From contig NZ_CP150637.1 in assembly GCF_038500265.1 (NCBI RefSeq), positions 2,063,501 through 2,127,500 of the forward strand: a stretch of DNA of 64,000 nt. Reading direction: 5' to 3'. This DNA comes from Ignatzschineria larvae DSM 13226 (GTDB taxonomy: Bacteria; Pseudomonadota; Gammaproteobacteria; Cardiobacteriales; Wohlfahrtiimonadaceae). The stretch's first letter is position 1. Each line of letters opens with the position of its first letter. The notes beneath the pieces are model-generated. The model was not told the origin of the DNA and ran no database searches. It saw nothing but the letters and a program-made list of their open reading frames with translations. Below, in pieces: positions 44,909 through 45,476 of this stretch. A program made the position numbers and the translations under genes.

Positions 44909-44980
44909 GTTTTACTCAATAAAGATAGTACCCACTTTTCAGATATGGGAAAACTTTCTGAAATTTTTTCATTCTTATTA

Positions 44981-45221
44981 AAAGCCGATTTGCGGCGGGA
45001 GGGAATGATCGTGAAACCAGAACAATCGAGCGCCCGCGGATGAGTGATTCTTAATCTCTCGGCAAGAGCGCCGATCCCGCAGATGAGCGATTCTCAATCT
45101 CTCGGTGATAGTGCAGATTCCGGCATTCAAGATATTACCCGACGCGAAAGCGCCACAACTGCCGGCGCGTGATCGATGGAAGAACGGGATATTTCCCCCG
45201 GCGATGCGGTCAATTTTCTTA
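44981..45221. repeat. GC-rich tandem repeat, unit 1
   Basis: This ~241-bp unit begins AAAGCCGATTTGCGGCGGG and ends GCGGTCAATTTTCTTA. It is nearly identical to unit 2, with a period of 254 bp. Within it a ~43-bp segment (CCGCGGATGAGTGATTC...) is itself repeated imperfectly. It is visibly richer in G+C than its surroundings and has no convincing gene. Confidence 0.92.
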
Positions 45222-45234
45222 GTCGTTCTAAATC

Positions 45235-45476
45235 AAAGCCGATTTGCGGCGGGAGGGAATGATCGTGAAACCAGAACAATCGAGCGCCCGCGGATGAGCA
45301 ATTTTCAATCTCTCGGCAAGAGCGCCGATCCCGCAGATGAGCGATTCTCAATCTCTCGGTGATAGTGCAGATTCCGGCATTCAAGATATTACCCGACGCG
45401 AAAGCGCCACAACTGCCGGCGCGCGATCGATGGAAGAACGGGATATTTCCCCCCGGCGATGCGGTCAATTTTCTTA
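45235..45476. repeat. GC-rich tandem repeat, unit 2
   Basis: This is the second copy of the unit, differing from unit 1 by only a few substitutions and one extra C in a C-run. A 13-base spacer separates the copies. Open frames here are long on both strands but follow the repeat rather than coding constraint. Confidence 0.92.

Follow-up and report, generated by a model that had tools for sequence, protein, structure and literature searches.

The tandem duplication at positions 44981-45476 of the window, the 64,000-nucleotide stretch of the Ignatzschineria larvae DSM 13226 chromosome analysed here, probably consists of two units, duplicated locally, of a non-coding, BIME-like family of repeats that is characteristic of this fly-associated bacterial genus and occurs without a RAYT. 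Throughout the family a module A alternates with an inverted A, the arrays are placed between open reading frames (ORFs), two helices exhibit compensatory changes, copies are present in all nine Ignatzschineria genomes searched, and the number of units differs at some of the sites that two species share in synteny.

The array is located between gdhA and recG, and the interval that separates it from gdhA carries a terminator-like site. TRF delimits a tandem repeat with a period of 254, 1.9 copies, 97% matches and a score of 950 at exactly 44981-45476, which confirms the 254-bp tandem duplication described in the initial annotation, while a gap-free repeat finder reports two families (231 nt at 96% and 30 nt at 97%, with spacings of 254 and 255). 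Global alignment of the two units reveals 236 identical columns out of 243 (~97%), and two of the seven remaining columns are gaps, one of them where the alignment is cut off. All parts of the array are described here on the forward (+) strand. An optional AT-rich linker, designated C, precedes it at 44918..44974, as judged from a comparison of junctions that leaves its left limit approximate, and many longer B-to-A junctions outside this array contain a similar segment. The left arm of module A (44975..44994, consensus nnAATAAAAGCTGATTCnCG) is followed by the first copy of module A (44995..45037), which comprises 43 bp enclosed by a terminal stem GCGGG/CCCGC, and by two copies of a hairpin that we call hp1, at 45041..45061 and 45084..45104; this doubled hairpin is the nested ~43-bp repeat noticed earlier, which is thus real. 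The first copy of module B (45160..45206, 47 nt, stem GCCGG/CCGGC) is an inverted and diverged A, a homology that was recognized from other B modules. A 42-bp junction composed of a right arm and a left arm (45207..45248) leads to the second unit, in which module A (45249..45291) is identical to its first copy, the two hp1 hairpins lie at 45295..45358 (the positions of unit 1 plus 254), and module B (45414..45461) has 48 nt. The array is bounded by a right arm that terminates in TCTTA (45462..45476).

The GC content of the unit is 53%, compared to 41.3% in the whole window, about 0.30-0.34 in nearby, mostly non-coding segments and about 0.37-0.52 in segments within gdhA and recG. The initial annotation had called the duplication compositionally foreign, which is overstated, because the segments inside the two genes reach similar values; nor is a foreign origin supported, given the presence of the family in all nine genomes searched and several arrays syntenic with I. 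ureiclastica. The four ORFs of the window array have no match in Pfam up to an E-value of 0.1, and among 45 A-to-A periods of less than 350 bp in arrays of I. larvae, 25 are not divisible by three. Both results agree with the earlier remark that the long frames look incidental, and the repeat is not visibly coding. An assembly artefact is an unlikely source of the duplication, since the published assembly of this strain (CP150637.1) is a single contig of 2,563,334 bp with 40.5% GC, obtained from Nanopore and Illumina reads (PMC11556009).

The unit has many relatives in its own genome, and the suggestion that it could be a dispersed repeat was right. At E<=10 a BLAST search returned 149 matches, of which the weakest resemble chance; beyond the window, unit positions 1-241 are matched with 74% identity at best. 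Profile searches of 24 fetched I. larvae stretches identified 99 A and 105 B modules with more than 25 bits, at 45 sites that together occupy 22.1 kb, numbers that are a lower bound for the genome. The basic element is 43 bp long, with a conserved terminal stem of 5 bp, and exists in two forms, A and an inverted, diverged B, which are combined into the module A-spacer-B. Form A (GCGGG...CCAGA...CCCGC) has a conserved left arm, and B, 47-48 bp in the window (GCCGG...AAGAAC...CCGGC), a conserved right arm; when B is reverse-complemented, 29 chosen rows of the two forms can be aligned over 43 columns with a single gap of one base. A and B alternate strictly in 36 of the 41 multi-module sites (five deviate), and every one of the 45 sites is confined to one strand. 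Of 60 B-to-A junctions in I. larvae, 37 span 38-43 bp, and among the remaining 23 there are 20 that measure 91-107 bp owing to an added AT-rich segment. The A-to-B distance ranges from 76 to 308 bp; the 23 arrays with two or more such distances divide into 13 in which it stays within 2 bp and 10 in which it varies, so that many arrays cannot be regarded as clean tandem duplications, although part of this variation is perhaps due to modules missed by the word patterns.

Two helices of the family have changed in a compensated manner. At its third pair, the terminal stem has G-C in A and C-G in inverted B, and elements from three other species carry T-A; this pair is of the Watson-Crick type in 121 of 125 distinct elements (60 G-C, 56 C-G and 5 T-A) retrieved from loci L050 and up with a pattern that left both bases of this pair free. 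An alignment of 29 chosen rows, which includes five T-A rows added because the free-base scan had revealed them, exhibits pairing in 99.3% of cells. Measured against shuffles that ignore the relatedness of the sequences, so that the figures constitute support and not probabilities, the covariation score of this stem was reached by none of 500, with other measures staying within the shuffles (16 of 500 for pairs changed on both sides, 381 of 500 for pair types), and that of hp1 was likewise reached by none of 500, its numbers of both-sides-changed pairs (66 of 500) and of pair types (96 of 500) not being beyond the shuffles. Pairing in hp1 is found in 85.4% of cells; one pair fails in 16 of 45 sequences, and at each of three pairs both sides have changed in 12 of the 45. 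Folding of 57 hp1 hairpins was better than the mean of mononucleotide shuffles in 51 cases and not better in six. The predicted fold of the 275-nt segment 44960-45234, made up of the unit and 21 bases to its left, has no advantage over dinucleotide shuffles, whichever strand is taken (z of 0.32 and 0.82), and Rfam yields no family at the gathering score, its single hit lying outside the unit and reaching 19.9 bits where 60 would be required.

A covariance model of A with its hairpin detected the family in all nine Ignatzschineria genomes searched, with at least 126, 121, 106, 55, 26, 19, 18, 13 and 4 matches at E<=0.01 among the 150 candidates scored per genome, where matches near E 0.01 in the low-copy species are individually uncertain; three of the nine genomes thus possess more than 100 modules. 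None of nine genomes from three sister genera of the same taxonomic family contains the repeat according to this model. An exact degenerate pattern, scanned against a collection of 84,980 species, was found only in I. ureiclastica and I. cameli, the genome of I. larvae being possibly outside the scan, and blastn with words of 11 gave no match of the unit to phage and plasmid records. The comparison with its own and other genomes, which had been proposed as a check, revealed a repeat that is dispersed, genus-wide and missing from the sister-genus genomes searched. No description of the family was found in the literature on Ignatzschineria repeats or palindromes or on REPs, judged largely by title.

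When I. larvae and I. ureiclastica were compared by synteny with the repeats masked, arrays appeared at the same places in both species, sometimes with a different number of units. I. larvae has two units versus one at two sites and one versus two at a third; a further array differs by one B (nine versus eight modules), and another reads ABABA versus ABABAB, in an I. ureiclastica stretch that ends just past the array. Two other syntenic arrays are equal (AB and BABABA). A recent dispersal of the family is not demonstrated, since several arrays predate the split of the two species. In I. ureiclastica, where about 20 kb separate gdhA from recG, the 9.5 kb fetched before recG contain no counterpart of the window array, and the closest relatives of the window unit are located elsewhere. 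A query with the window flanks matched recG without gdhA in six other genomes of the genus and neither gene in a seventh, and hits of more than 25 bits are absent before recG in the stretches fetched from six other genomes, one of which provided 869 bases only. The ~97% identity of the two window units, compared to 74% for the next best whole-unit match in the genome, leads us to infer that the 254-bp duplication originated locally, in tandem, from a single A-spacer-B module. It might have proceeded via replication slippage aided by the hairpins or via unequal recombination.

Among the known repeats, the closest parallel is offered by BIMEs, which consist of REPs regularly spaced in alternating orientation and are tied to RAYTs in the cited account (PMC2817692). 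The features described there for BIME-2/REP elements of E. coli, Stenotrophomonas and Xanthomonas include alternating inverted palindromes, linkers, extragenic clusters, length variation (between strains in the case of BIMEs) and complementary stem changes (PMC2817692), all of which recur in Ignatzschineria. The Ignatzschineria unit, however, is 43 bp long, its terminal stem is short (5 bp) and a second hairpin is conserved outside of it, the nine genomes lack a RAYT/Y1 gene, and the GTAG tetranucleotide at the stem end is absent from the A and B consensus when inspected by eye. A REP unit is given as 20-40 bp in PMC3733652, a range that 43 bp narrowly exceeds. That source also records REPs of the CGTC type, which have no dedicated transposase, and REP-like families that have no tag (PMC3733652). 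The former share with the Ignatzschineria family the palindromic repeats without their own transposase, but are reported there to possess stems of 8-9 bp, loops of 4-5 nt and rare clusters (PMC3733652), in contrast to a 5-bp stem and common clusters here, and the CGTC (or TGTC/CCTC) tag is not seen by eye in the Ignatzschineria consensus. The untagged families, listed there for M. tuberculosis, D. radiodurans, Bordetella, Brucella and Cyanobacteria, likewise lack a terminal tag, a likeness that is by description only (PMC3733652). As it exhibits alternation, extragenic placement and compensated stems, while deviating in the RAYT, the tag and, narrowly, the unit size, the Ignatzschineria family is best called BIME-like. 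MITEs and ERIC are imperfect palindromic intergenic elements of 100-300 bp. Compared to them, the Ignatzschineria units form tandem alternating arrays, and no target-site duplication was found.

The absence of an evident mobilizer bears on several other explanations. An ordinary REP/BIME system moved by a RAYT (Y1) transposase, whose gene was missed or has been lost, is what the alternating inverted palindromes, linkers and extragenic clusters would suggest, as they reproduce the published BIME architecture (PMC2817692). However, PF01797, the Y1 family that includes RAYTs, has no match at E<=0.001 in any of the nine Ignatzschineria genomes, although the same search is effective in controls (it matched 11 of the 40 genomes searched as well as the E. 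coli control), and neither a GTAG nor a CGTC tag is visible by eye beside the stem of the consensus, so we regard this explanation as unlikely. Only slightly less doubtful is a MITE, i.e. a non-autonomous DDE transposon with imperfect terminal inverted repeats of ~65 bp (arm and A at one end, B and arm at the other), which would have been inserted and then amplified in tandem. The alignment of A with inverted B over 43 columns provides terminal inverted repeats, the arms that flank A and B are conserved, and among two-module sites detected by word patterns 12 are A-B, one is A-A and none is B-A. On the other hand, the more sensitive profile classified the two-module sites of I. larvae as seven A-B and one B-B, an unsystematic look at the fetched stretches noticed no transposase-bearing element directly between A and B, and no target-site duplication was detected: over 26 arrays the mean longest shared string was 6.0 versus 5.9 for re-paired ends, in a comparison where the ends are uncertain and a short duplication could escape. 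In the low-copy species, no gene travelling with the units was noticed when the beginnings of ORFs were inspected by eye. Without a RAYT/Y1 gene or a target-site duplication, the earlier idea of a remnant of a mobile element finds no support. An integron-like attC array, or another cassette array of site-specific recombination, is suggested by tandem hairpin sites separated by spacers, but is most improbable, as the spacers in eight arrays repeat each other instead of being different cassettes, and no integron integrase exceeds the cut-off in the nine genomes (best score 80.3 bits against 265, with a model that below the cut-off also matches all 14 controls).

The placement of the arrays bears on yet another explanation, in which the repeat is a structured RNA or a 3'-UTR element that acts in the transcript of the preceding gene as a terminator or stabilizer. 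All 45 I. larvae sites lie between mechanically called ORFs, with three of them touching or overlapping an ORF end by 3-18 bp, by a method that could not reveal intragenic sites; 19 are convergent, 22 tandem and four divergent with respect to the adjacent genes. The excess of convergent over divergent sites (two-sided binomial ~0.003) suggests that the arrays avoid promoter regions, because convergent and divergent gaps must be approximately equal in number on a circular chromosome. The same excess would suit a 3'-UTR element, as would the covarying helices and the proximity of the arrays to gene ends, 24 of the 60 that face an array having less than ~40 bp of room before it. In 26 of these 60, however, including gdhA, a terminator-like site already precedes the array, and at the tandem sites eight arrays are read with the genes and 14 against them, which means that there is no fixed sense. 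The structured nature proposed in the initial annotation is upheld as far as the two compensated helices of the modules are concerned, but a dedicated RNA is not supported, because the whole unit folds like its shuffles, Rfam contains no match at the gathering level and arrays occur in both senses; an RNA-level role is therefore improbable.

The BIME-like family without a RAYT thus remains our preferred explanation. Because the arrays take either orientation to the neighbouring genes, a recombinase or the replication machinery probably reads its hairpins in single-stranded DNA rather than in an RNA of a fixed sense. The enzyme that would bring modules to new sites does not appear to belong to the RAYT/Y1 family, as far as the nine genomes show. 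According to the usual account, REP/BIME arrays depend on RAYTs, which makes Ignatzschineria suitable for testing if arrays can arise and persist without them, and also for asking what else recognizes such hairpins. Besides, the arrays may serve as length-polymorphic typing markers for bacteria of maggot-infested wounds.

Several observations concern the neighbours of the arrays. I. ureiclastica possesses five CRISPR arrays with one common repeat, and four of them have a BIME-like array 39, 48, 104 or 105 bp away (stretches L064:1150-12660 and L088:4349-5121); two of these four are flanked by BIME-like arrays on both sides, the distance on the other side being 224 bp. The four may be segmental duplicates and therefore not independent cases. 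The CRISPR repeat, with up to three mismatches allowed, is found in none of the other eight genomes of the genus. A type III-B CRISPR-Cas locus with Cas1, Cas10/Cmr2, Cmr1, Cmr3, Cmr4 and a Csm6-type ring nuclease (L088:4742-11522 and L089:1315-8912) is located in the gdhA-recG interval of I. ureiclastica, in which I. larvae possesses the window array only. Deletion of such a locus from I. larvae via recombination between two arrays was considered and is not supported by the I. ureiclastica layout, because that species has an array on the gdhA side and none in the 9.5 kb fetched before recG, and its closest relatives of the window unit are elsewhere. The nearness of CRISPR arrays in this one species raises the question, which can be tested, of whether repeat arrays are linked to the relocation of defence loci. 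It is conceivable, though doubtful, that BIME-like arrays spread by an enzyme of another kind than RAYT act as recombination platforms that carry neighbouring DNA, such as CRISPR arrays and accessory genes, and that they have scattered the type III-B CRISPR arrays of I. ureiclastica.

Accessory genes also occur among the arrays of I. larvae itself: in L032:2764-15431 a Fic adenylyltransferase, an AbiEii protein, a Gp49/HTH toxin-antitoxin-like pair and an integrase-core (IS3-like) transposase are each located between successive arrays, the stretch with Fic being unmatched in the syntenic segment fetched from I. ureiclastica. A second dispersed motif, TTCTATCCGGCATnTTGCAAG, occurs with its variants beside some arrays and in other species (flanks of L038 and L060, L097:7966-8010 and L099), and by eye it resembles a relative of the B type. 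Finally, I. ureiclastica contains a 42-bp tandem repeat at L088:7367-7585, within an ORF of 110 codons that has a signal-like start.
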